DNA of 23,665 nucleotides, taken from positions 1 through 23,665 of the IMG/VR virus record IMGVR_UViG_3300017762_000079; one strand, given 5' to 3'. Made by a program: the position numbers and the translations under genes. This DNA comes from a virus. The notes under the pieces were generated by a model. The model did no database searches, was not told where the DNA came from, and was given only the letters and a program-made list of their open reading frames with translations. Positions 594 through 15,947 of the stretch are shown piece after piece (the first letter of the stretch is position 1; every line of letters begins with the position of its first letter).

Positions 594-763
594 TAGATGG
601 TTTTTTAAATCCAATGACTAAGGAAGAGTTTAGAGCATGGGAAGATTATGTTATTAAATATAATCACGATAATCCTACAGACCAAATGGCTTACGAAGTT
701 AATTGGAAAGATGATATATATAAAGTTAAGTTATTAAATTTAAAGGTTGACAATGAGGGATAG
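578..763 (+). CDS. Small hypothetical protein
   Basis: A 61-aa protein beginning MVDNMIDGFLNPM. An upstream in-frame ATG at 551 exists, but the ATG at 578 is preceded at a good distance by a purine-rich GGGAG (about 566-570), whereas 551 has no ribosome binding site; I therefore prefer 578. The product is rich in acidic and aromatic residues (EEFRAWEDYVIKYNHDN) and has no membrane segment or recognisable motif. Its stop codon (761-763) lies inside the spacer of the strong promoter at 747-775, so the gene marks the end of this transcription segment. Function unknown. Confidence 0.6.
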   Translation: MVDNMIDGFLNPMTKEEFRAWEDYVIKYNHDNPTDQMAYEVNWKDDIYKVKLLNLKVDNEG

Positions 764-775
764 GTGTGGTATAAT
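747..775 (+). promoter_or_regulatory. Perfect sigma70-type promoter upstream of the non-coding region
   Basis: TTGACA at 747-752, exactly 17 nt, then TATAAT at 770-775. All twelve hexamer bases match the bacterial housekeeping consensus at the optimal spacing. Transcription would start around 780-783, exactly where the roughly 400-nt ORF-free region begins. This implies transcription by the host RNA polymerase and suggests the region below is made as an RNA or as a long leader of the gene at 1182. Confidence 0.85.
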
Positions 776-780
776 AGCCA

Positions 781-1180
781 CTTGTTTTCAAGGTATGTCT
801 AAGGGTGTAGCCCTCAACTAACCTTCCTGAACCTGAAGGCATACGATTTTATCGTGCTAGTTTCTGGTCTAGTGCCACTAAAACCAGACTGATTTTAAAA
901 GTTTAGTGTTAGATGAGCTTACTGTAAAATCCTTAAAGGTGGTCGTAAGATAAAGGTTGGAATGAGTGCTAGAACCCATCGTCCATCACACTAATTAGTT
1001 GCTCTCTACTTTAGCAGGTATGGGTTTTGAGAATAAAATAAACTCATCCATGTGGCTAGAATATGAGCCTTTGTAAAAACTTTTCTGGAACGATTAGGTC
1101 GCCTTGAAGAAGTTAAGGATGAATGAAGGATAAGAACTACACCGTAGCCTTCACTAGCTACTCTTTTAACACGAGGGTTA
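781..1180 (+). ncRNA. Candidate structured non-coding RNA or long 5' leader
   Basis: About 420 nt between the stop at 763 and the ATG at 1182 has no ORF longer than about 18 codons, which is unusual in so compact a genome. It follows a perfect promoter directly. Stems I can pair by eye: CTTG/CAAG (781-784/789-792, TTTT loop); GTATG/CATAC (793-797/840-844) enclosing AGGG/CCCT (802-805/811-814) and CCTTC/GAAGG (822-826/835-839); TCTGGT/ACCAGA (863-868/883-888) with inner TAGT/ACTA; AGAACCCAT/ATGGGTTTT (971-979/1020-1028, one G-U); CTCAT/ATGAG (1043-1047/1063-1067); TGAAGG/CCTTCA (1124-1129/1148-1153) enclosing CTAC/GTAG (1137-1140/1144-1147). No tRNA, tmRNA, RNase P, 6S or intron core is recognisable. 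The 3' boundary is uncertain and no U-tract terminator is seen. Confidence 0.6.
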
Positions 1181-1181
1181 T

Positions 1182-1436
1182 ATGAATTTATATTTTAAAT
1201 CAACAACACTAGACAGGCAGATAGGTTGGACATGGAAAGACATGGACAAAGCTTATTGGGATACATGGATACCTAAGAAGTCTGATATCAAAATCATTAC
1301 AAGACTTAACAAAGAACAAAAGAAACAAGTACTTGATGAACTCTGGGAAGATTTACAGAGTGCTATACAATTTACACGAGATAGAAACAATGCAAGAAGA
1401 AGAGCAAAAAGACTTGCACAAAAACAAAAAGTATGA
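1182..1436 (+). CDS. Small basic hypothetical protein
   Basis: An 84-aa ORF (MNLYFKSTTLDRQIGWTW...) whose ATG follows GAGGG at 1173-1177, an adequate ribosome binding site. The N-terminal half is aromatic-rich (WTWKDMDKAYWDTWIP); the C-terminal half is strongly basic and probably helical (RDRNNARRRAKRLAQKQKV), which would fit nucleic-acid binding. It lies just before SSB at the head of the replication operon. Family not recognised. Confidence 0.65.
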   Translation: MNLYFKSTTLDRQIGWTWKDMDKAYWDTWIPKKSDIKIITRLNKEQKKQVLDELWEDLQSAIQFTRDRNNARRRAKRLAQKQKV

Positions 1437-1487: not shown

Positions 1488-1901
1488 ATGTATGAGTATG
1501 TAGATGGCAAAGCTATGTGGGCAAATATCAGCACACCAAACACTAAGTTTGAACCACATAAGTACGGAATAGTTGTGCTGACTGACGAAGATACTGCTAC
1601 TAGATTAGAAGGTCTTGGTTTATCAAGAGTTAGAACCAGAGATGGTCAACCTAAATATGATGAACCTGCTTTCTCATTCAGTAGAAAAGTAGATAGACAC
1701 GATGGGACAACCAATCCTGCACCTAAATTAGTTGACAACGATGGCAACGATTTAGATATTAGTGTTGGTAATGGCTCAGAAGTTACTGTGAAAATTAAAC
1801 CTTACACAGGAAAGTATGGTACTTTTGCAGAGTTAATAGCTGTAAAGGTTACTAATTTAGTTGAATATACTGAACCTAGTTCAGATAACGAGGAGTTTTA
1901 A
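1488..1901 (+). CDS. Single-stranded DNA-binding protein, T7 gp2.5-like
   Basis: A 137-aa protein that should coat single-stranded DNA during phage replication. It begins MYEYVDGKAMWANISTPN and shows the beta-rich pattern expected of an OB fold (YGIVVLTDEDTATRLE, AFSFSRKVDR, GSEVTVKIKPY, YGTFAELIAVKVTNLVEY). It ends in an acidic tail with a terminal aromatic residue (SSDNEEF), the hallmark by which T7 gp2.5 and other SSBs contact polymerase and helicase. Its position immediately upstream of primase-helicase and polymerase supports the call. It is shorter than T7 gp2.5 (about 230 aa) but close to SSBs of other marine podoviruses. Assigned from the tail, size and context; the fold is inferred. 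Confidence 0.8.
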   Translation: MYEYVDGKAMWANISTPNTKFEPHKYGIVVLTDEDTATRLEGLGLSRVRTRDGQPKYDEPAFSFSRKVDRHDGTTNPAPKLVDNDGNDLDISVGNGSEVTVKIKPYTGKYGTFAELIAVKVTNLVEYTEPSSDNEEF

Positions 1902-2155: not shown

Positions 2156-2173
2156 TTCATAGTGAGGGCTAAC

Positions 2174-3841
2174 ATGGATAAAACTTGGGATAAGTTACAT
2201 CAACCTTGTCCACTTTGCGGAAGTAGTGATGCTGTAGGAATCAATGAAGATGACTCAGCAAAATGCTTTAGCTGTGGAGAGTTTATGCCTAGCTATACTA
2301 AAGCATGTGGAGGAAAGGATATGCAAACAGTTACAACAACACCAACTAAACAACCTGATATGGTAGATGAAGGAAAGTTTTCAGCATTAACTGATAGAAA
2401 AATTTCTGTACAAACTGCTCAGAAGTATGGGGTGAAATGTGTACACGACTTACAAGGTAATGTCGTTAAGCATTTGTATCCTTATTATAATGGGCATGAG
2501 TTATCAGCTACTAAGACTAGGAACTGTAGAGATAAAGACTTCTATGTTTCTGGAAGTTATAACGATACAGGATTGTTTGGTCAACAACTTTTCAAAGGCG
2601 GTAAATATGTTACCGTTACTGAAGGGGAATGTGATGCTATGGCTACTTATGAACTGCTTGGTTCTAAGTGGGCTGTAGTATCTATCAAACGTGGTGCCAA
2701 TGGTGCAGTAAGAGACATCAAGGAAAGCTTAGAGTTCTTTGATAACTTTGAAAACGTCATCATTGCTTTTGATAAAGATAAGGCAGGACAAGAAGCTAGT
2801 ATTAAAGTTGCTAGACTTTTCAAACCCGGAAAGGCTAGGATAGTTACCTTACCTAACGGATGGAAAGACCCTAACGACATGCTAAGAAATAACAAACATA
2901 AAGAGTTTGTTGAAGCTTGGTGGGCTAGTAAAGTTTATACACCTTCTGGTGTTATAAATGTTTCTGAACAACGTGAGAAGTTCCACAATCGTGAGAGAAA
3001 AGAAAGTGTACCTTACCCATACGAAGGACTGAATAAGAAACTCTATGGTCTTAGACAAGGTGAACTTGTAACTCTTACAGGTGGTACAGGACTTGGTAAA
3101 TCAAGTGTAACACGTGAACTTGAACATCATCTTATCAAGAACACTACAGATAATGTAGGCATCATTGCATTAGAAGAAGATTGGAGAAGAACTATTGACG
3201 GTATCTTATCCATTGAAGCTAATGCTAGATTATATGTTGACCAAGTAAGAGATAGATTCAGTAAAGAAGAACTAGATAAGTTCTTTGATATACTTTATGA
3301 CGGTGAGAATAAGAATAGAGTATGGGTTCATTCTCATTTTGGAACTAATGACATTGATGATATCTTTACTAAACTTAGATTTATGATTATAGGTTGTGAT
3401 TGTAAGTGGGTAGTCGTTGACCATCTACACATGCTAGTAAGTGCTGTGCATGAAGGAGATGAGAGACGTGCCATTGATACAATTATGACTAGGCTTAGAA
3501 GTTTGGTAGAAGAGACAGGTGCAGGAATCATTTTGGTTTCACACTTGAGACGTGTTGATGGTAACAAAGGACATGAGAATGGTATTGAAGTATCTCTATC
3601 TCATCTAAGAGGTTCTAATAGTATTGGACAACTTAGTGATTGTGTGATAGCATTAGAACGTAATCAACAATCAGATGACCCTGATGAAGCAAGAACAACA
3701 AAGATGCGTATATTAAAATCAAGATACACAGGCGATGTTGGTATGGCTTGTAGGGTTATATATGATGCAGAGACAGGCAGACTATCTGAACTAACAGATG
3801 AAGATATTACTTTTGATGATAGTTTGGACGAGGCATTTTAA
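2174..3841 (+). CDS. Bifunctional DNA primase-helicase, T7 gp4-like
   Basis: A 555-aa replication protein that unwinds the fork and synthesises primers. Numbered from the ATG at 2174: an N-terminal zinc ribbon CPLC (Cys12, Cys15) and CFSC (Cys31, Cys34) for template recognition; a TOPRIM domain with TEGECDAM (about 149-156) and the metal-binding AFDKDKAG (about 198-205); a hexameric RecA/DnaB-type helicase with Walker A GGTGLGKSS (303-311), Walker B WVVVDHLHM (about 412-420), and downstream IILVSHLRR and SHLRGSNSIGQLSD. It ends in an acidic stretch with a final Phe (DDSLDEAF), as T7 gp4 does for polymerase contact. A GTG at 2162 is in frame, but GAGG sits just before the ATG at 2174, so I take the latter. 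The 3' end overlaps the polymerase start (TAATG). Confidence 0.95.
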   Translation: MDKTWDKLHQPCPLCGSSDAVGINEDDSAKCFSCGEFMPSYTKACGGKDMQTVTTTPTKQPDMVDEGKFSALTDRKISVQTAQKYGVKCVHDLQGNVVKHLYPYYNGHELSATKTRNCRDKDFYVSGSYNDTGLFGQQLFKGGKYVTVTEGECDAMATYELLGSKWAVVSIKRGANGAVRDIKESLEFFDNFENVIIAFDKDKAGQEASIKVARLFKPGKARIVTLPNGWKDPNDMLRNNKHKEFVEAWWASKVYTPSGVINVSEQREKFHNRERKESVPYPYEGLNKKLYGLRQGELVTLTGGTGLGKSSVTRELEHHLIKNTTDNVGIIALEEDWRRTIDGILSIEANARLYVDQVRDRFSKEELDKFFDILYDGENKNRVWVHSHFGTNDIDDIFTKLRFMIIGCDCKWVVVDHLHMLVSAVHEGDERRAIDTIMTRLRSLVEETGAGIILVSHLRRVDGNKGHENGIEVSLSHLRGSNSIGQLSDCVIALERNQQSDDPDEARTTKMRILKSRYTGDVGMACRVIYDAETGRLSELTDEDITFDDSLDEAF

Positions 3842-7511: not shown

Positions 7512-7773
7512 ATTTAACGAAGATAAAATACTAAATGAACTAAAAGCATACGTAGGTAATACATATGCTCAACACTATGCTAACGGTAAGTACCAAGCAA
7601 CTGATATGATAATTGATTCTGGATACGGAGAAGGATTCTGTCTTGGAAACATTATGAAGTATGCTATGAGGTTTGGAAAGAAAGACGGAAAGAACAACTT
7701 AGACTTATATAAAATAATACACTATGCTATAATAGCAATCTACGTAAACAATAAGGAACAAGACAATGGTTGA
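7501..7773 (+). CDS. DUF3310-like protein
   Basis: A 90-aa protein (GTG start, MNYKFNEDKILNELKAYV). The central part, HYANGKYQATDMIIDSGYG followed by FCLGNIMKYAMRFGKKDGKNNLDLYKIIHYAI, matches the DUF3310 pattern I know from phages: HY......D.I......F..GN..KY..R...K.....DL.K...Y. T7 gp1.7, a nucleotide kinase, belongs to a related group; a role in nucleotide supply would fit the adjacent ribonucleotide reductase genes, but that is inferred. It overlaps nrdA by 8 nt. Confidence 0.75.
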   Translation: MNYKFNEDKILNELKAYVGNTYAQHYANGKYQATDMIIDSGYGEGFCLGNIMKYAMRFGKKDGKNNLDLYKIIHYAIIAIYVNNKEQDNG

Positions 7774-9661
7774 AGATAAGATAGGAACTAAGCCTTACTT
7801 AGGAATTGAAATAGACTATGACAAAGAAAAGACATTTGATAAATTTAGTTTAGACACACTCAAAGATAGATATTTTTGGGAAGGAGAAACACATGCACAA
7901 GAAGCATTCGCAAGAGCCTCCGTCTTCGGAGCAACATTCAAAGGGGAGACCGATTTTGAGTTGGCTCAAAGACTTTATAACTACGCTTCCTCTCGTTGGT
8001 TCATGTTCAGCACTCCTATTCTTAGTAACGGGGGTACCACTCGTGGGCTTCCTATCAGTTGTTTTCTCAATTATGTTCCTGACAGCAGGGGTGGTTTATC
8101 TGCTCACTATGATGAGAACATATGGTTGGCAAGTTCGGGTGGAGGCATTGGTGGATATTGGGGCGATATTAGGAGCAACGGTATTTCAACTACTCATGGC
8201 AGTCGTTCTACTGGTTCTATTCCTTTCATCCACGTAGTAGACTCACAGATGTTAGCCTTTAATCAAGGCACAACAAGACGTGGTTCTTATGCAGCTTACA
8301 TGGACATATCTCATCCGGAGATTGAAGAGTTTATTAACATGAGAAAAGAATCTGGTGGAGATATAAACAGAAAGAATCTTAATCTTCACAACGGTATAAA
8401 TATTACCAATGCATTTTTACAAGCTGTACAAAATGATGAAGACTGGAGATTGATTGACCCTAAGACTAATGAAGCTGTTAAGACTATCAATGCTAGAGAA
8501 CTATGGTGGCAGATAATAAATGCTAGAGCTGAAACAGGTGAGCCTTACATGGTCAATATTGATAAGTGTAACGAAGCTTTACCTAAAGCACAAAAAGATT
8601 TAGGACTTAAGATACGTCAAAGTAACTTATGTTCTGAAATAACTTTACCAACTGATGAAGAAAGAACAGCAGTATGTTGTTTGTCTTCTGTAAACTTAGA
8701 ACACTTTGATGACTGGTCAAAGGACGATAACTTTATACAAGATTTAATAACCATGCTTGATAATATAATCCAACATTATATTGACAATGCAATAGATACA
8801 ACACAACTAGGAGAATATAGTGCGAATTTTAAACGCTTTCAAAAATATGTTAAAGAAGGTAAAGAAGGCTTTACCAAGAGTGCCTACTCAGCGTATCGAG
8901 AAAGAAGTCTCGGTCTTGGTGCTATGGGTTTCCATGCTTATCTTCAACGTAGGTCACTTCCTTTTGAGGGCATTTACGCAACTGGGTTTAACTTTAAGGC
9001 ATTTACTTACATTAAACTCAAAGCGACAGAAGCAACTAAAGAGTTGGCTATTGAAAGGGGTGAGGCTCCTGATATCCATGGTAGCGGTAAGCGGAATGCT
9101 AATCTCCTTGCTATTGCTCCTAATGCTAGTAGCGGTATCATTTGTAGTGGGACTTCTCCTAGCATTGAGCCTTATCGTGCTAACTGCTATACTCACAAAA
9201 CTTTATCCGGAAGCTATCAAGTAAAAAATAAATACCTTGAAAAGCTTTTAAAATCTAAAGGATTGAAAGGTAAAGAGTTAGAGAATCTTTGGAAAGATAT
9301 ATCAGGTAGTGATGGTTCTGTTCAACACTTAGATATACTTACTGATGATGAGAAAGAAATATTTAAAACAGCTAATGAGATAAATCAAATATGGATTGTT
9401 GAACATGCTGCAAAACGACAGGAGTTTGTGTGTCAGGCACAGTCTGTCAACCTGTTCTTTACTTTACCAAAAGCAACAGAACCTCAAGAAGTACATGATG
9501 AATATATGCAGTACGTAAATGATGTTCATTGGTATGGTATGAACAAACTTAAATCGCTTTACTATTTCCGTTCTAATGCTGCTCGTACAGTAGAAAATGT
9601 AAATGTTAAAGTACCAAGAATAAATTTAGAAGATACAGAATGTATCGCATGTGAGGGATAA
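7766..9661 (+). CDS. nrdA: Class I ribonucleoside-diphosphate reductase, large (alpha) subunit
   Basis: A 631-aa catalytic subunit that reduces ribonucleotides to deoxyribonucleotides for phage DNA synthesis. Key residues: Cys99 in PISCFLNYV (E. coli Cys225), the N-x-C-x-E triad Asn287/Cys289/Glu291 in SNLCSEI (E. coli Asn437/Cys439/Glu441), Cys304/305 in CCLSSVNL (E. coli Cys462), radical-path Tyr599/Tyr600 in SLYYFRS, and the C-terminal redox pair Cys626/Cys629 in CIACEG. It is about 130 residues shorter than E. coli NrdA and starts too close to the catalytic barrel for an N-terminal ATP cone, so allosteric activity control is probably absent, as in many phage enzymes. AAGGAA precedes the ATG. 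Two stretches are clearly more GC-rich than the rest (see findings). Confidence 0.96.
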   Translation: MVEDKIGTKPYLGIEIDYDKEKTFDKFSLDTLKDRYFWEGETHAQEAFARASVFGATFKGETDFELAQRLYNYASSRWFMFSTPILSNGGTTRGLPISCFLNYVPDSRGGLSAHYDENIWLASSGGGIGGYWGDIRSNGISTTHGSRSTGSIPFIHVVDSQMLAFNQGTTRRGSYAAYMDISHPEIEEFINMRKESGGDINRKNLNLHNGINITNAFLQAVQNDEDWRLIDPKTNEAVKTINARELWWQIINARAETGEPYMVNIDKCNEALPKAQKDLGLKIRQSNLCSEITLPTDEERTAVCCLSSVNLEHFDDWSKDDNFIQDLITMLDNIIQHYIDNAIDTTQLGEYSANFKRFQKYVKEGKEGFTKSAYSAYRERSLGLGAMGFHAYLQRRSLPFEGIYATGFNFKAFTYIKLKATEATKELAIERGEAPDIHGSGKRNANLLAIAPNASSGIICSGTSPSIEPYRANCYTHKTLSGSYQVKNKYLEKLLKSKGLKGKELENLWKDISGSDGSVQHLDILTDDEKEIFKTANEINQIWIVEHAAKRQEFVCQAQSVNLFFTLPKATEPQEVHDEYMQYVNDVHWYGMNKLKSLYYFRSNAARTVENVNVKVPRINLEDTECIACEG

Positions 9662-10647: not shown

Positions 10648-10858
10648 TAAACAAGAAGCTAACCTAGTTAGTTTCAAGATTGTCTTAACAAGAGATAATA
10701 AAATAATGACAGAGTTTAGTATGTTACCAGAGGATATGGTTGATGAAGTATTTCCTCCTGATGATAGACCTCTTATGAGAACTATTATTAGAAACGGTAA
10801 AGCTAAATTAGAAAACTTACACGATTACTTTCAAAGAGAACTTAATGCTCTTGAATAG
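10640..10858 (+). CDS. Small hypothetical protein, last gene of the plus-strand operon
   Basis: A 72-aa ORF (MINKQEANLVSFKIVLTRDN) whose ATG overlaps the nrdB stop by 8 nt, with GAGG upstream. It is soluble and mixed alpha/beta, with FPPDDRPLMRTIIRNGK in the middle; no family recognised. In this position some marine phages carry a glutaredoxin or thioredoxin for the reductase, but no CxxC motif is present here, so I do not assign that. Its 3' end overlaps the convergent cyclase gene tail-to-tail by 17 nt. Confidence 0.7.
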   Translation: MINKQEANLVSFKIVLTRDNKIMTEFSMLPEDMVDEVFPPDDRPLMRTIIRNGKAKLENLHDYFQRELNALE

Positions 10859-12584
10859 TGTAAATAATTATCTCATCTTTTTTACCCTTTACTTTTATAG
10901 GGTCTAAATAACGAGTGGGTATATCAGAGTTCATAGCTGTGGTATACCCTATTACAATATCTTCTCCAACTTCTTTAGTAGAACTCTCTAGTCTTGCAGC
11001 TAGATTGACAGCATCACCTATTGCAGAATAATCAAACCGTGTTTCACTTCCCATATTCCCTACTACTGCTTCTCCTGTATTTATACCTATTCCTATTTCG
11101 ATTCCTAATTGTGCTTCTTCCATATCTCGGTGTATCTGTAATGCTGCTTGGATGGCTTTGGTCTCGTGTTCAGGAACATCTATTGGTGCATTAAATATAG
11201 CCATCATTGCATCACCAATATATTTATCTACCATACCGTCATACTTTTTAACCGCATCAGCTTGTATCGTTAATGCTTTATTCATAATCTCTGTAACTTG
11301 TTCAGGTTCTAATCGTTCTGACAAACTTGTAAAGCCACGAACATCTGTAAATAAAAACGTACAACGTCTTCGTTCTCCGCCTAACTTCAGAAGCTCTGGA
11401 TTATCTTGTAATTGTTTTACTTGTCTTGGGTCAAGGTAATGTTCAAATTGTTTCTTGATTTGTTGTCTAAGTTTGTATTGAGTTCTAAAGTTTAAATAAA
11501 ATTGTAACGTAGCAATAAGTGTCATACTTATTAAAGTCCAAGTCACATCTATGAGTATGTTACTTTGTATGACACTATATCCAAAGTACCCTGTTCCTGC
11601 CATCAAAGAACCAACTGATACAATACCCCATGTGATACCTAATCGTGCTATTAGAAGAGCTGTGAGGAAGCCACAGACTAATAATAATAATAGTTCTACT
11701 ACTAACCTATAATCAGGTATGTAAGGTGTGTCCATCAACATACTTTCTGATAGAGCTGCTTGTATTTTATGTGGTTCTAATAATCCAACTGGTGTTGCAA
11801 CTTGTGGTGATATTCCTTTAGCTGTGAATCCTACAAATACAAAAGTAGATTCAACCTTGTCAAGCTCTTGTAAAGTTATCTGTGGTGTATCTACCCAACT
11901 AATCCATTTACGACCAAGACTATCTGTAGAAACGGGTGGAATACCTCTTACTCTAACCTGTTCTATTCCATTCAGATTTGTTACAATCTGATAAGTACGA
12001 CCACCTCCTAGTATTTTTAAAACTTCCGTTCCAAAAGAAGCAACCCACCCATTATCTGTTTGTTGTAGTAAAGGTATACGCCTTACTAAATTATCTACAT
12101 CTACTGGTGCAGAGATAGCACCTTGACTAGCTGACTGTTTTAAAACATCTATGTTCTCTAAAAATCCTTGAGCTTTTGGTAAGGATACTATTGGTCCTTT
12201 GATAACTGTACCGTGTGTAGCAGGATAACTATTATTGTTTACTTCTGGCATAGCGATAACACTTGCAGAACTTTGTAAGGCTTTAGCAAACTCATCATCT
12301 CCACCCATTCTATCTTTGTGTGGAAATAACATAACCCAACCTACGCCATACGCACCTACATTTATTATATCGTTGTGAATCTTTGCTAAGTTTTGACGAG
12401 GTAAAGGATATCCTCCCATATCGTCTAGGTCTTGTTCAGTAATGTTAAGGATTGTAAAGTGTCCGGTAGCATTTTGTTGAGGTACAAGAGCATCAAAGGT
12501 TTTGAGTCTTAGTACTTCTAGTGGGACACTATTAAATAGTAATGGTAGTGTTAGTAAAGCTAATAGTAAGGATGACCACTTCAT
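10842..12584 (-). CDS. CHASE2-domain class III adenylyl/guanylyl cyclase
   Basis: A 580-aa membrane cyclase. An N-terminal helix (about 4-20) anchors an extracytoplasmic CHASE2-type sensor (about 22-290: LEVLRLKTFDAL, ILNITEQDLDDMGGYPLPR, a DNLVRRIPLL segment, FVFVGFTAKGI). Three membrane helices follow (about 293-314, 318-338, 344-365), then a cytoplasmic catalytic domain (about 400-580). Catalytic residues: metal ligands Asp414 (FTDVRGFTS) and Asp458 (GDAMMAIF), purine-contacting Lys454 (DKYIGD), and transition-state Asn527/Arg531 (DAVNLAARLE). The second specificity position is Ser520 (YSAIGD), where class IIIb enzymes usually have Thr; Lys plus Thr/Ser points to ATP and thus cAMP, not proven. 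It is the last gene of the late operon, coupled by ATGA to the gene before. CHASE2 cyclases are normally bacterial sensors, so finding one in a phage is unusual. Confidence 0.92.
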   Translation of the reverse strand: MKWSSLLLALLTLPLLFNSVPLEVLRLKTFDALVPQQNATGHFTILNITEQDLDDMGGYPLPRQNLAKIHNDIINVGAYGVGWVMLFPHKDRMGGDDEFAKALQSSASVIAMPEVNNNSYPATHGTVIKGPIVSLPKAQGFLENIDVLKQSASQGAISAPVDVDNLVRRIPLLQQTDNGWVASFGTEVLKILGGGRTYQIVTNLNGIEQVRVRGIPPVSTDSLGRKWISWVDTPQITLQELDKVESTFVFVGFTAKGISPQVATPVGLLEPHKIQAALSESMLMDTPYIPDYRLVVELLLLLVCGFLTALLIARLGITWGIVSVGSLMAGTGYFGYSVIQSNILIDVTWTLISMTLIATLQFYLNFRTQYKLRQQIKKQFEHYLDPRQVKQLQDNPELLKLGGERRRCTFLFTDVRGFTSLSERLEPEQVTEIMNKALTIQADAVKKYDGMVDKYIGDAMMAIFNAPIDVPEHETKAIQAALQIHRDMEEAQLGIEIGIGINTGEAVVGNMGSETRFDYSAIGDAVNLAARLESSTKEVGEDIVIGYTTAMNSDIPTRYLDPIKVKGKKDEIIIYTIQEH

Positions 12585-12970
12585 TTCATAATCTCATAAT
12601 TGTTTATGACTACAAGTGTTAAAGTTATATTTATACCTGTCATGTATTTTTTACTAGAATTTTTAGAAATAAATCCAGCCACTATTGCTTTATGTAATAA
12701 TAGCTCCTCTAGTTTTGGTTTCTTAGGAAGTAAAAAATTTTTTTCATATACGTCAGGTTTTTTTGTTCCTTCTATAGTTGTATAAACATCTAAAGCATTT
12801 AGAGTCCAAAAGAGTATTATTTGATTTTTTGTTGGAGGCTCGTTGTAATCTCCTACATTAAAAAGAAATTCTTTTTTAGGTGGGATATATGCAGGAGGTT
12901 GTTCAGGTATTGTTAAGTCTAGCTCAGATTTTAAATTTAATGATAGTAAAAGTAAAAACAAATATTTCAT
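12581..12970 (-). CDS. Small membrane protein of unknown function
   Basis: A 129-aa protein with a hydrophobic N-terminus (MKYLFLLLLSLNL) resembling a signal peptide or anchor, a Pro-rich stretch (IPEQPPAYIPPKK), a hydrophobic helix containing LNALDVYTTIEG (about 57-68), a conserved-looking YEKNFLLPKKPKLEELLLHKA, and a final helix TGINITLTLVVINNY. The LNALDVYTT...E.N.LLP pattern resembles small DUF5658-like bacterial and phage membrane proteins of unknown function (from memory, moderate). It lies between the FecR gene (1 nt gap) and the cyclase (ATGA overlap), so it is probably part of the same signalling or surface module. Confidence 0.7.
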   Translation of the reverse strand: MKYLFLLLLSLNLKSELDLTIPEQPPAYIPPKKEFLFNVGDYNEPPTKNQIILFWTLNALDVYTTIEGTKKPDVYEKNFLLPKKPKLEELLLHKAIVAGFISKNSSKKYMTGINITLTLVVINNYEIMK

Positions 12971-12971
12971 A

Positions 12972-14081
12972 CTAATTATCCTGTGTAATTTTTATAGTAG
13001 AGTCTCCTCCACCATTAACTATTATCTGTGTACTTTTACCGTTTTGAATTAAGATAACAGTATAAGCATTCTGTTTGTCTAAGTCTAAACGTATCGTATC
13101 TTCTAAAGTTTTATAAAACGTAATAATATTATCAGTTATAAAAGTATTAATCTGTGTCTCAGAATCATATCCAACTTTTGTTCCTTTTAAATCTATATCA
13201 GTTTTTAAAAGTGTTTCAGTCTGGTCTAACTCATTTACATCTTCTATGATATCTAACAAGTCTTCAAGAAAGTTTACATCAAGGTAATTGATATCTAGTT
13301 CTGTAAACTCTAGCTCATCTTCTGCAAGATAATCTACTTCTAAATCATCAAACTCAAGGAAATCAACATCAAGAATGCTAGTGCTACTCCCTCCATCTTC
13401 TCCTTGTTCATTCTCTTGTACTTCCTTCGGTGCATTTACTATTAACATGTTATCAATTAACTCAAGAGTCAAGTCAAGGATAACGGGTTTGGTTGGTTCA
13501 GTCTCGTACATTGAAACTGTTGTAGCTTGGTAAGGCTTGTTAAGTGTTACCTGCCCCATAGCTGTTGCGACAACTATCTCTCCACTTGGAAGACCATCAT
13601 CGTCTGGTAATAATATAACTAAACTTCTACCTAATTCATCTACAGTAACTGTAAAATCTGTACCACGAATACCTATCGTAGCACTAGGAGTTTGTATTAG
13701 TATATTTTCTTTATCTATTGTAGCTAATTTACCAGTGATAAATCTTGCAGTACCACTGGCAAACTGAAGTGCCATCTTAGATTTAGATGGGTCGGGGTCG
13801 TATATAAACTCATCTATTATTAATTCAGAATGTTCAGTAAGTCTAACTTGACTGTCATCTAAAAAAGTAATGCCCAGCCTTCCGTTAGAAGTTTGGACAT
13901 TATCGTAACTTTCTATGTTAAAATCTAATGCAGCTTGAAAAGTGTCATCCCTGACTACTCTACCAGCTCCATTAAGTTCTGTTATGTTTCCAATATTAGC
14001 AGCTTGTGCTTGTACCTTGGTCGTTTTGAATGACACAAACAGTACCATTATTACCATTAGATAAAATTTTAAGCCAGTCAT
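12972..14081 (-). CDS. Secreted FecR-domain protein with acidic repeats and curlin-like tail
   Basis: A 369-aa exported protein. Signal peptide 1-26 (KFYLMVIMVLFVSF...VQAQA). The FecR domain (about 33-180) has NGRLGITFLDDSQVRLTEHSEL and the signature TPSATIGIRGTDFTV (131-145). Then come a Ser/Gly linker (about 228-236) and a very acidic Leu/Asp-rich repeat region (about 236-288; LDVDFLEFDDLEVDYLAEDE). The last 30 residues (IQNGKSTQIIVNGGGDSTIK) resemble a curlin repeat. FecR-type domains usually act in the periplasm as signal receivers or binding modules. There is no sigma factor, anti-sigma domain or TonB receptor here. The ORF overlaps the curlin gene by 86 nt in another frame and no clear ribosome binding site precedes it; a start at Met9 (14057) is possible. 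Confidence 0.88.
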   Translation of the reverse strand: MTGLKFYLMVIMVLFVSFKTTKVQAQAANIGNITELNGAGRVVRDDTFQAALDFNIESYDNVQTSNGRLGITFLDDSQVRLTEHSELIIDEFIYDPDPSKSKMALQFASGTARFITGKLATIDKENILIQTPSATIGIRGTDFTVTVDELGRSLVILLPDDDGLPSGEIVVATAMGQVTLNKPYQATTVSMYETEPTKPVILDLTLELIDNMLIVNAPKEVQENEQGEDGGSSTSILDVDFLEFDDLEVDYLAEDELEFTELDINYLDVNFLEDLLDIIEDVNELDQTETLLKTDIDLKGTKVGYDSETQINTFITDNIITFYKTLEDTIRLDLDKQNAYTVILIQNGKSTQIIVNGGGDSTIKITQDN

Positions 14082-14712
14082 TGTCTTGTGTACTCAGTTG
14101 TTGAATGTTAAAAGTTCTGTTATCACCTGTTTGGTCAAGATAAAAATATCCACCTGCATATCCTGAACCTGTAAAGTTTACAGTGTTATCATCTCCATCT
14201 ACATCAACATAGTTAGTAGCACCATCATAGTTTATATCAAAATCAAATGTGTTACTATCACCATTGACAATCCAATCTAAATCTAATGTTGCAGCCAATG
14301 CAGTTGTACCATGGTCTAAAGTAAATGTATTAGAACCCCCAGTAACATCAACATTATAATTAGAGTTATCAATACCAAAAGTATTTGTTGGGTCTCCTTG
14401 TATAGTAAATGTATTACTATCACCATCAAACTCAAAAAATCCTGTTATAGAATCACCATAAATATCTCCTAAAAATTTATTAGTATTTCCTATTTGATTT
14501 ATATCTAAAGTTAAATTAAGACCATCTAAATCTAATGCATTCATGCTTCCTGCAGCAGACTGTAATCCACCTATGATATTGCCTGAACCTAACTGCTCTA
14601 AATCTATATTAGCTGTAGCACCTGATTGGTCAACATATATTTCGTTATCAGCCCCGTATAGTAGCGATGCACTCGTCATCACAACTAGGCTCATCAATTT
14701 TAATGTTTTCAT
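13996..14712 (-). CDS. Secreted curlin-like repeat protein (CsgA-like fibre subunit)
   Basis: A 238-aa exported protein with a signal peptide (MKTLKLMSLVVMTSASLLYGA, cut before DNE). The mature part is about ten degenerate repeats of the form (Q/D)-x-G-x-x-N: QSGATAN (29-35), QLGSGN (40-45), QIGNTN (73-78), DGDSN (96-100), QGDPTN (105-110), GGSN (125-128), NGDSN (150-154), DGATN (163-167), DGDDN (172-176), QTGDN (194-198), each followed by alternating hydrophobic residues such as TFTIQ. This is the strand-turn-strand pattern of curlins (S-x5-Q-x-G-x2-N-x-A-x3-Q in CsgA). It is very acidic, and has two C-terminal cysteines (226 and 238) that curlins normally lack. Lying directly behind csgF-csgG, it is the likely substrate of that secretion pore. 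Amyloid formation is inferred. Confidence 0.82.
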   Translation of the reverse strand: MKTLKLMSLVVMTSASLLYGADNEIYVDQSGATANIDLEQLGSGNIIGGLQSAAGSMNALDLDGLNLTLDINQIGNTNKFLGDIYGDSITGFFEFDGDSNTFTIQGDPTNTFGIDNSNYNVDVTGGSNTFTLDHGTTALAATLDLDWIVNGDSNTFDFDINYDGATNYVDVDGDDNTVNFTGSGYAGGYFYLDQTGDNRTFNIQQLSTQDNDWLKILSNGNNGTVCVIQNDQGTSTSC

Positions 14713-15505
14713 ATTCCCAATAGCCTCTCTCTATTCCTGTATATATTATATTTAATACTCCAGTCTCTATTGCTTTTTGTAAAGCTATAGAAACACTTTC
14801 GTTCTCAGCAACTCCTCCTTCTATTTCTACCAGTTCAGTACCGGCTTCTATAAAACGAAACACATCCTGAGAAACACTTGTAGATATAATGCTTTTAGAA
14901 ACTAAAGTTTCCATCAACACTTCTCCAGTTGATACAGAAACTAATCGCAATGATATAGTAACTGTATCTTCTCTATACTGTTTACTATTACCTATACCTA
15001 GATATCTAGCACCAGCACCTCCAGATTTGAGGTTAGCCTCATAACTAACAACTCCTCCCTGAACCAATAACCCTGCAAATAGCAAAGGTTTCATTTTGTT
15101 ATCTTCTTTAAATTCTTTACGAGTACTTCTAATTAACTGTCTTTCTTTTGTTAGGTCATCTAAACCTACACGTTCTACTACTCTAAAAAATTCACCACCT
15201 GCTGCATGTTTAAAAGCTCTAATTAAAAATGCTTCAGGAGCTTGTGTAATAGCTGTACTAAACAAAGCAAACGAACTATTACTTCTACGTTGACCTGTTA
15301 AGTCTCTAAAGCTATTAGGGTATATAGCTATAGTTGGTCTTGCTTTTGCACTTGGTAAGTTTTTTAATTCTTCTGATTGTAAGTCTAATGTTGAACTAGC
15401 TTTAATATCTTGTGTTAATACTAAATCTTGATTCTTATTTAATACTGCACAACTAGAAATAAAAATCACCAACAGGCAAAGATATAGTCGTTGTATTACC
15501 ATCAC
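14648..15505 (-). CDS. csgG: CsgG-type curli secretion lipoprotein (outer-membrane pore)
   Basis: A 285-aa protein close in length to E. coli CsgG (277 aa). The N-terminus has a lipoprotein signal with Cys19 (LLVIFISSC). The CsgG domain is well preserved: TIAIYPNSFRDLTGQRR, SSFALFSTAITQAPEAFLIRAFK, FFRVVERVGLDDLTKERQLIR, VVSYEANLKSGGAGARYLGIG, QYREDTVTISLRLVSVSTGEVL, QDVFRFIE, and IETGVLNIIYTGIERGYW, each aligning in order with E. coli CsgG (for example NVKSGGVGARYFGIG and NLRVVNVSTGEIL). CsgG forms a nonameric outer-membrane channel for curlin export. It overlaps csgF by 53 nt and the curlin gene by 65 nt in other frames. The C-terminal extension IKIDEPSCDDECIATIRG is not like E. coli. Confidence 0.95.
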   Translation of the reverse strand: MMVIQRLYLCLLVIFISSCAVLNKNQDLVLTQDIKASSTLDLQSEELKNLPSAKARPTIAIYPNSFRDLTGQRRSNSSFALFSTAITQAPEAFLIRAFKHAAGGEFFRVVERVGLDDLTKERQLIRSTRKEFKEDNKMKPLLFAGLLVQGGVVSYEANLKSGGAGARYLGIGNSKQYREDTVTISLRLVSVSTGEVLMETLVSKSIISTSVSQDVFRFIEAGTELVEIEGGVAENESVSIALQKAIETGVLNIIYTGIERGYWEYENIKIDEPSCDDECIATIRG

Positions 15506-15947
15506 TGTCCGTTATATTTAAAGTTATTATTCCATCGACAACACTATATTCTATTCTGTTGCCCTCTAATTCTAGTACACCACTATCACTTGGAGTTTCA
15601 CCAAATAAATTTTCTACTAACTGTCTAGATAATTGTGCATATATTCTAGACTCTAAATTTCTTATAAATCTTGCAAGTGTTGTATTCTCTTTATCTCTTT
15701 CTATCTGGTCTTGAAGTGCTTTAATCTCTGCCTTCAATGCTTCTTTACGATTAAACTCTTGGTTTTGTATTGTCAAATAATGTGATGATGCACCAATACC
15801 ACTAAAGCTAGGACTCTTAAATTTAAATACTATCTCATCTGCAATACTTCCAACAGACCAGAATATTATTAACATAGACCAAAAGAACATACAAAACTTG
15901 CAGTTCCTTGAGGCTTTATCACTTTTAAATGTAGGTACTAATTTCAT
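15453..15947 (-). CDS. csgF: CsgF-type curli assembly protein
   Basis: A 164-aa secreted partner of CsgG (E. coli CsgF 138 aa). Signal sequence with a long N-region (hydrophobic core MFFWSMLIIFWSVGSIA, about 20-36, cut before DE). The mature start EIVFKFKSPSFSGIGASSHYL corresponds to CsgF [20 protein letters not shown], the segment that plugs into the CsgG channel. The C-terminal half, LELEGNRIEYSVVDGIITLNITDSDGNTTTISL, matches CsgF's [31 protein letters not shown], and the protein ends DFYF as CsgF ends in STDF. A charged helical insert (KEALKAEIKALQDQIERDKE) lies between. I use the ATG at 15947 because the stop of the upstream 40-aa gene overlaps it (ATGA). A start at Met20 is possible. Confidence 0.88.
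   Translation of the reverse strand: MKLVPTFKSDKASRNCKFCMFFWSMLIIFWSVGSIADEIVFKFKSPSFSGIGASSHYLTIQNQEFNRKEALKAEIKALQDQIERDKENTTLARFIRNLESRIYAQLSRQLVENLFGETPSDSGVLELEGNRIEYSVVDGIITLNITDSDGNTTTISLPVGDFYF

Follow-up and report, generated by a model that had tools for sequence, protein, structure and literature searches.

Structured RNAs of phages usually consist of single conserved domains. In T4-type phages, mobile regulatory cassettes, the promoter early stem-loops, were reportedly described by Arbiol et al. in 2010. GOLLD and ROOL are ornate phage RNAs, large and rich in pseudoknots, whose function is unknown (PMC12286853). In the operator of T4 gene 32, UUAAA/UAAA repeats and the ribosome-binding site (RBS) come after a pseudoknot (PMC535899). 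Candidate structured RNAs of Pelagibacter include ribosomal-protein, ffh and SAM leaders, and phages are not mentioned there (PMC2704228).

The leader treated here precedes a replication operon in the window, that is, the whole 23,665-base stretch of an IMG/VR virus record. Comparison with IMG/VR relatives indicates that this leader is pieced together from RNA modules that are each conserved on their own, and that several of these form pseudoknots (Table 1).

Table 1. Features of the leader and the following genes in the window
Feature	Position	Strand	Remarks
Sigma-70 promoter	747–775	+	12/12 consensus; putative start near 782
Module A	791–846	+	Stem 793–799/838–844 around hairpin UAG-CCCUCAA-CUA; compensatory outer-stem pairs
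Invariant UAGCCCUC in module A loop	808–815	+	Complementary to GAGGGYTA Shine-Dalgarno sequences
Small hairpin ACGA..TCGT	843–855	+	Variable loop; missing from some relatives
Module B, H-type pseudoknot	857–887	+	Both stems show compensatory changes; all cells (100%) paired
Module C, first copy (C1 variant)	902–995	+	cmsearch 51.5 bits, E 5e-11
Module D	998–1051	+	Possible kissing hairpins; seen again in other leaders and L190
Module C, second copy	1052–1161	+	cmsearch 87 bits, E 3e-20; covariation
Shine-Dalgarno GAGGGTTA, first gene	1173–1180	+	Complement of 808–815, one G-U pair
First operon gene	1182–1436	+	84 aa, without known family
gp2.5-like ssDNA-binding protein (SSB), second gene	1488–1901	+	PHROG 112, E 2.3e-8
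Shine-Dalgarno GAGGGCTA, primase/helicase	2164–2171	+	Perfect complement of 808–815
DNA primase/helicase	2174–3841	+	PHROG 239, E 6.9e-178

Promoter, extent and genomic setting

The promoter consists of TTGACA (747–752), a 17-nt spacer and TATAAT (770–775) with an extended -10 TG at 767–768, giving the 12/12 match that the preliminary description, which called it perfect, had stated. A promoter matching 11–12 of the 12 positions is kept in 63/64 distinct upstream stretches of the relatives. Since no T7-type RNA polymerase was found in six near-complete relatives of 45–50 kb, while those of HTVC168P and HTVC021P were detected as positive controls, this promoter most likely serves the host RNA polymerase. 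In three relatives (L056, L080 and L009), another sigma-70-like promoter, reading TTGACTTTCAAAATTAGATATGTTATAAT or close to it, is seen at the leader end.

The preliminary description had placed a structured region devoid of any plausible protein at 764–1181. The leader itself is real and its non-coding nature holds, with 37 stops across the three + frames of 782–1181 and a longest open stretch of 31 codons; its extent is corrected to about 782–1161, to which the Shine-Dalgarno stretch up to 1181 is added. The stop codon of the upstream gene comes directly before position 764, and the leader ends at the RBS of the first operon gene. From promoter to first downstream start, the leaders of relatives measure 157–938 nt with indels of any length. 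A frameshifted gene, whose detection in close relatives would by the description's own account have refuted it, was rejected because of the stops in all frames, the length changes of any size and the covarying stems, and no such coding gene was met in the relatives.

Downstream, the first gene is followed by those for SSB, an 83-aa protein, primase/helicase and PolA in this order. The nearest isolates at the protein level are the Pelagibacter phages HTVC115P, HTVC104P and HTVC103P, with about 40–47% identity. Elsewhere in the window, curli-secretion genes occupy 10842–15947 on the - strand, including those for CsgF (15453–15947), CsgG (14648–15505) and a curlin-like repeat protein (13996–14712), together with genes for a FecR-domain protein and a CHASE2 adenylate cyclase; the genes of this region are shared by 6/6 near-complete relatives at 54–91% identity. 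A pyrimidine-dimer glycosylase-like protein is encoded at 108–590, two genes 5′ of the leader, and its homologs are also found near C modules on other contigs.

Shuffling of the modules

A search with the SSB protein yielded 80 viral loci, to which scans with single-module patterns added further ones. By blastn, identity is 72–91% in most loci across the promoter and the leader's initial ~170 nt, and beyond this point blocks are absent, present or swapped between loci. With module borders set by eye and motif, the order in the window is A, small hairpin, B, C1, D and C, and 45 orders are counted among 90 distinct leaders, an approximate figure because it depends on motif annotation. The order differs in 51 of 60 leader pairs whose SSB genes are at least 98% identical, so recombination of the modules far outpaces divergence of the flanking genes; for example, the leaders L031 and L033 have different orders and yet are identical over the compared SSB stretch.

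Folding of single sequences gives no signal. The minimum free energy of the leader is ordinary for its composition when compared with shuffles (z = 0.25), and that of the individual modules ranges from z = -1.25 to 0.57. Thermodynamics was therefore excluded from the evidence, and the stems needed comparative proof. The seven or more stems counted in the preliminary description are, taken alone, not above chance, but many helices are backed by compensatory base changes across relatives, a kind of check that it had called for. Rfam 15 has no family reaching the gathering score in the window or 17 related loci, and at E up to 10 only sub-threshold matches, none of them credible, appear in the window and none in the 17 loci; ARAGORN finds neither tRNA nor tmRNA in the window or 16 related loci. 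The GOLLD and ROOL models of Rfam likewise match neither the window nor the 17 loci. When the window leader, the L080 leader and the L190 array were compared by blastn with 50,697 phage records, no match was obtained, and no published counterpart of this RNA was found in the literature under the terms tried.

In module A, which occurs in about 100 viral contigs, the outer stem changes on both sides from GUC/GAC to ACU/AGU. The stems of module B, CTAG (857–860/869–872) and CTGGT/ACCAG (864–868/883–887), are replaced in relatives by CAAG/CTTG or CGAG/CTCG and by CTAGT/ACTAG, respectively. Module K, a pseudoknot common in relatives and missing from the window, combines AGTG/CACT with GGGTA/TACCC, AGGCA/TGCCT or GGTTA/TAACC; 100% of its cells are paired, and its covariation score is 0.314 against at most 0.151 in slid controls. 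UUUUAA linkers are also present in the leader. In addition, a 23-nt apical element caps stems that otherwise differ widely (L232, L221, L239 and leaders with TAAATCCTAGATTAAATTCGGGG), among them a terminator-like hairpin in L232, and resembles a transferable loop for binding protein or RNA.

Module C

The second C copy of the window is closed by P1 (1052–1059/1154–1161) and contains a nested pseudoknot helix P4, TGAAGG (1124–1129)/CCTTCA (1148–1153), which crosses P1b. The covariation score for hand-drawn P1, P1b, P3 and P2 is 0.449 against at most 0.170 for slid controls in a MAFFT alignment of 16 sequences, 0.634 against at most 0.134 in 58 distinct cmsearch sequences (91.5% of cells paired; two-sided changes in 17 of 20 pairs), and 0.229 against at most 0.060 in 40 distinct further sequences from a pattern scan (95.5% paired). 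Alignments made with cmsearch follow the structure and are biased in its favour, which does not apply to the MAFFT alignment, and the E-values of the covariance models are rough. P4 appears as CACG/CGTG, CATG/CATG, CGCA/TGCG, GTTGGA/TCCAAC, ATTGGA/TCCAAT and GTGGG/CCCAT, and its own partners score 8.5 versus 6.0 when re-paired, with none of 500 re-pairings attaining 8.5. Hardly any variation is seen in the unpaired core (UGUAAAA and AUGAGAACUAAACC), and the P2 loops are swapped freely and hold other modules. Module C, missing from Rfam 15, is thus well supported by these comparisons as a real new RNA family, and its core would be compatible with a candidate riboswitch aptamer.

Module C is present in more than 100 viral contigs, often 5′ of SSB or primase genes, and whole contigs usually have one C locus. 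Outside the group of the window, 77 further records carry it, 60 of which have at least 1.5 kb downstream; in 60 further loci it lies outside ORFs, ahead of at least 24 downstream protein families. SSB, primase, polA or a homolog of the first operon gene lies within 4 kb 3′ of C in 36 of the 77, and C is directly 5′ of primase in about a dozen of them. Because many of these contigs share replication genes, and that of L195 the curli genes, they are mostly distant relatives. In some contigs C stands immediately 3′ of an upstream gene with no good promoter, so it need not be the leader at a transcript start.

Two exact patterns of C gave no match in 84,980 prokaryotic species genomes. Among 14 INPHARED phage records, mostly pelagiphage and roseophage isolates, only five sub-threshold matches were obtained, and the two inspected are chance matches inside portal genes; the model search found C in none of HTVC115P, HTVC104P and HTVC103P. 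HTVC115P has a 400-nt gap ahead of its SSB gene (7519–7921; L246 3020–3422) with a promoter-like site and a stretch faintly resembling C (GATACTGTAATCCTG..CAGGAGTTGTATG), without a model match. Matches to the C2 pattern within coding DNA (L204, L212–L215) were discarded. In L207 (6100–6600, reverse complement), C is embedded in many CTCATGGACG/GTCCA repeats, a setting unlike all others; an interrupted tRNA was considered there and dropped, ARAGORN finding none.

Complementarity to Shine-Dalgarno sequences

In the window, the sense strand has GAGGGYTA only at the Shine-Dalgarno sites of the first gene and primase, and these two rank first and second by duplex energy among 37 ORF starts, primase being the best. 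GAGGGYT is found at 52 of 59 first genes behind leaders, and the remaining seven resemble misplaced starts. In two relatives (L009 and L080), the first gene is replaced by a different inserted ORF with the Shine-Dalgarno sequence GGAGGGCTAT retained. Furthermore, GAGGGYTA is used at the RBS of 7/111 gene families when the phages carry module A and of 1/269 when they do not. GAGGG Shine-Dalgarno sequences are generally more frequent in phages with A (GAGGGATA in 9 families), and this excess may be a simple preference.

A conserved segment complementary to an RBS, as in an anti-Shine-Dalgarno riboregulator, is thus present, its match within the single genome being at chance level: against 25 annotated RBSs of the window, the 8-nt complementarity of the leader does not stand out from shuffles (485/500), and the idea therefore rests on comparison between genomes. 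Because the segment is invariant, it gives no covariation for a long-range pairing, while the C/U variation at the RBS keeps pairing with G. Complementarity and enrichment point only indirectly to a regulatory leader.

Possible function of the leader

The promoter, the non-coding nature, the compensatory pairs, the shuffling and the position of the leader are apparent from the aligned sequences; for the control of the replication genes, the following mechanism is proposed. Host RNA polymerase would transcribe the leader from the consensus promoter, ahead of the replication operon. The modules of this leader, most of them pseudoknotted, would fold independently of one another, and their array stops at the first gene's Shine-Dalgarno sequence. 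CCCUC (811–815) in the loop of module A would pair with the GAGGGYUA of the first gene and primase, and ribosomes would be kept off until the leader refolds or a protein binds. Modules C, D, B and the pseudoknots may serve as interchangeable structural or protein-binding inputs, and the leader would in this manner set translation, and perhaps stability, of the replication genes. A probability of roughly 0.55 is assigned to such a modular cis-acting 5′ leader working via module A with the other modules as inputs. More tentatively, the arrays might be viewed as a combinatorial phage riboregulator, in which shuffled C and its partners, with an anti-Shine-Dalgarno module at the 5′ side, act in cis, possibly in trans, on a few phage genes. 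The preliminary description had offered a new phage regulatory RNA or a riboswitch-like leader of the first gene and the replication operon. That the RNA is new and structured, and that it serves these genes as a leader, are both backed by covariation, conservation and synteny; its make-up of interchangeable modules, one of them a widespread family, lay beyond what that description could see.

An autogenous operator as in T4 gene 32 would suit the H-type pseudoknots (B, and K in relatives) found 5′ of the Shine-Dalgarno sequence with UUUUAA linkers in between, an arrangement recalling the T4 operator with its pseudoknot, repeats and RBS (PMC535899); SSB would nucleate on a pseudoknot, spread over the U/A-rich stretch and the RBS, and silence its own operon. 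SSB is indeed encoded within the operon, and the array is often found 5′ of SSB or primase. However, SSB is not the first gene, several contigs have the array 3′ of SSB and 5′ of primase, and the conserved structure of C, F and D far exceeds a nucleation site, which makes this reading unlikely. A trans-acting multi-domain RNA, an sRNA or decoy cut from the 5′ end of the transcript, whose module A targets the GAGGGYTA of several mRNAs, would suit the strong promoter, the modular turnover and the complementary motif that phages with A have at several genes not homologous to one another, but the array ends at the RBS in nearly all leaders with no strong terminator before the gene, and the enrichment at distal targets is modest; such an RNA seems improbable.

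The modules might instead protect or cut a polycistronic mRNA without sensing anything, comparable to the RNase III sites of T7. While C often lies directly between two genes on other contigs, and pseudoknot arrays could block nucleases, the conserved unpaired core of C exceeds what a cleavage or blocking hairpin needs, and this explanation is quite doubtful. RNA antiterminators of the put type work as nascent RNA close to the transcript start. One that modifies host RNA polymerase for a long operon would agree with the host-type promoter at the leader start of a phage without its own T7-type RNA polymerase; shuffled modules, leaders of up to 900 nt and intergenic C copies lacking a good promoter render it highly improbable.

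If the cis-acting control of translation is correct, the locus probably represents a new kind of RNA leader that times translation of replication genes in uncultured marine phages. Dozens of close phages keep the promoter and the genes and reshuffle the modules, from which RNA domains appear to recombine like protein domains. The leader offers a compact system for assigning roles to modules in translation, stability, and protein or ligand binding, and raises questions about the fast turnover of modules and about replication timing in phages without their own T7-type RNA polymerase. Marine viromes and metatranscriptomes can be searched for module C straight away.

Comparison with known systems

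Like the window leader, the Pelagibacter candidate RNAs are leaders that emerged from comparative analysis of marine sequence, but they are bacterial (PMC2704228) and the present one comes from a phage. Among systems whose working has been described, the T4 gene 32 operator (PMC535899) is the closest, by likeness only: both are leaders of replication genes with an H-type pseudoknot 5′ of the RBS and U/A-rich linkers. They differ in that the window leader has many modules instead of one pseudoknot, another spacing, SSB as the second gene, and a C core with no counterpart in T4. GOLLD and ROOL share with it the character of a large, pseudoknot-rich, phage-encoded RNA, whereas they are found near tRNA islands and the window leader is a mosaic of small modules 5′ of replication genes. 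As with the cassettes of T4-type phages, putatively regulatory RNA of phage intergenic regions shuffles between loci and genomes; in contrast to those simple promoter and stem-loop units, covarying pseudoknotted domains are shuffled here, and the promoter stays put.
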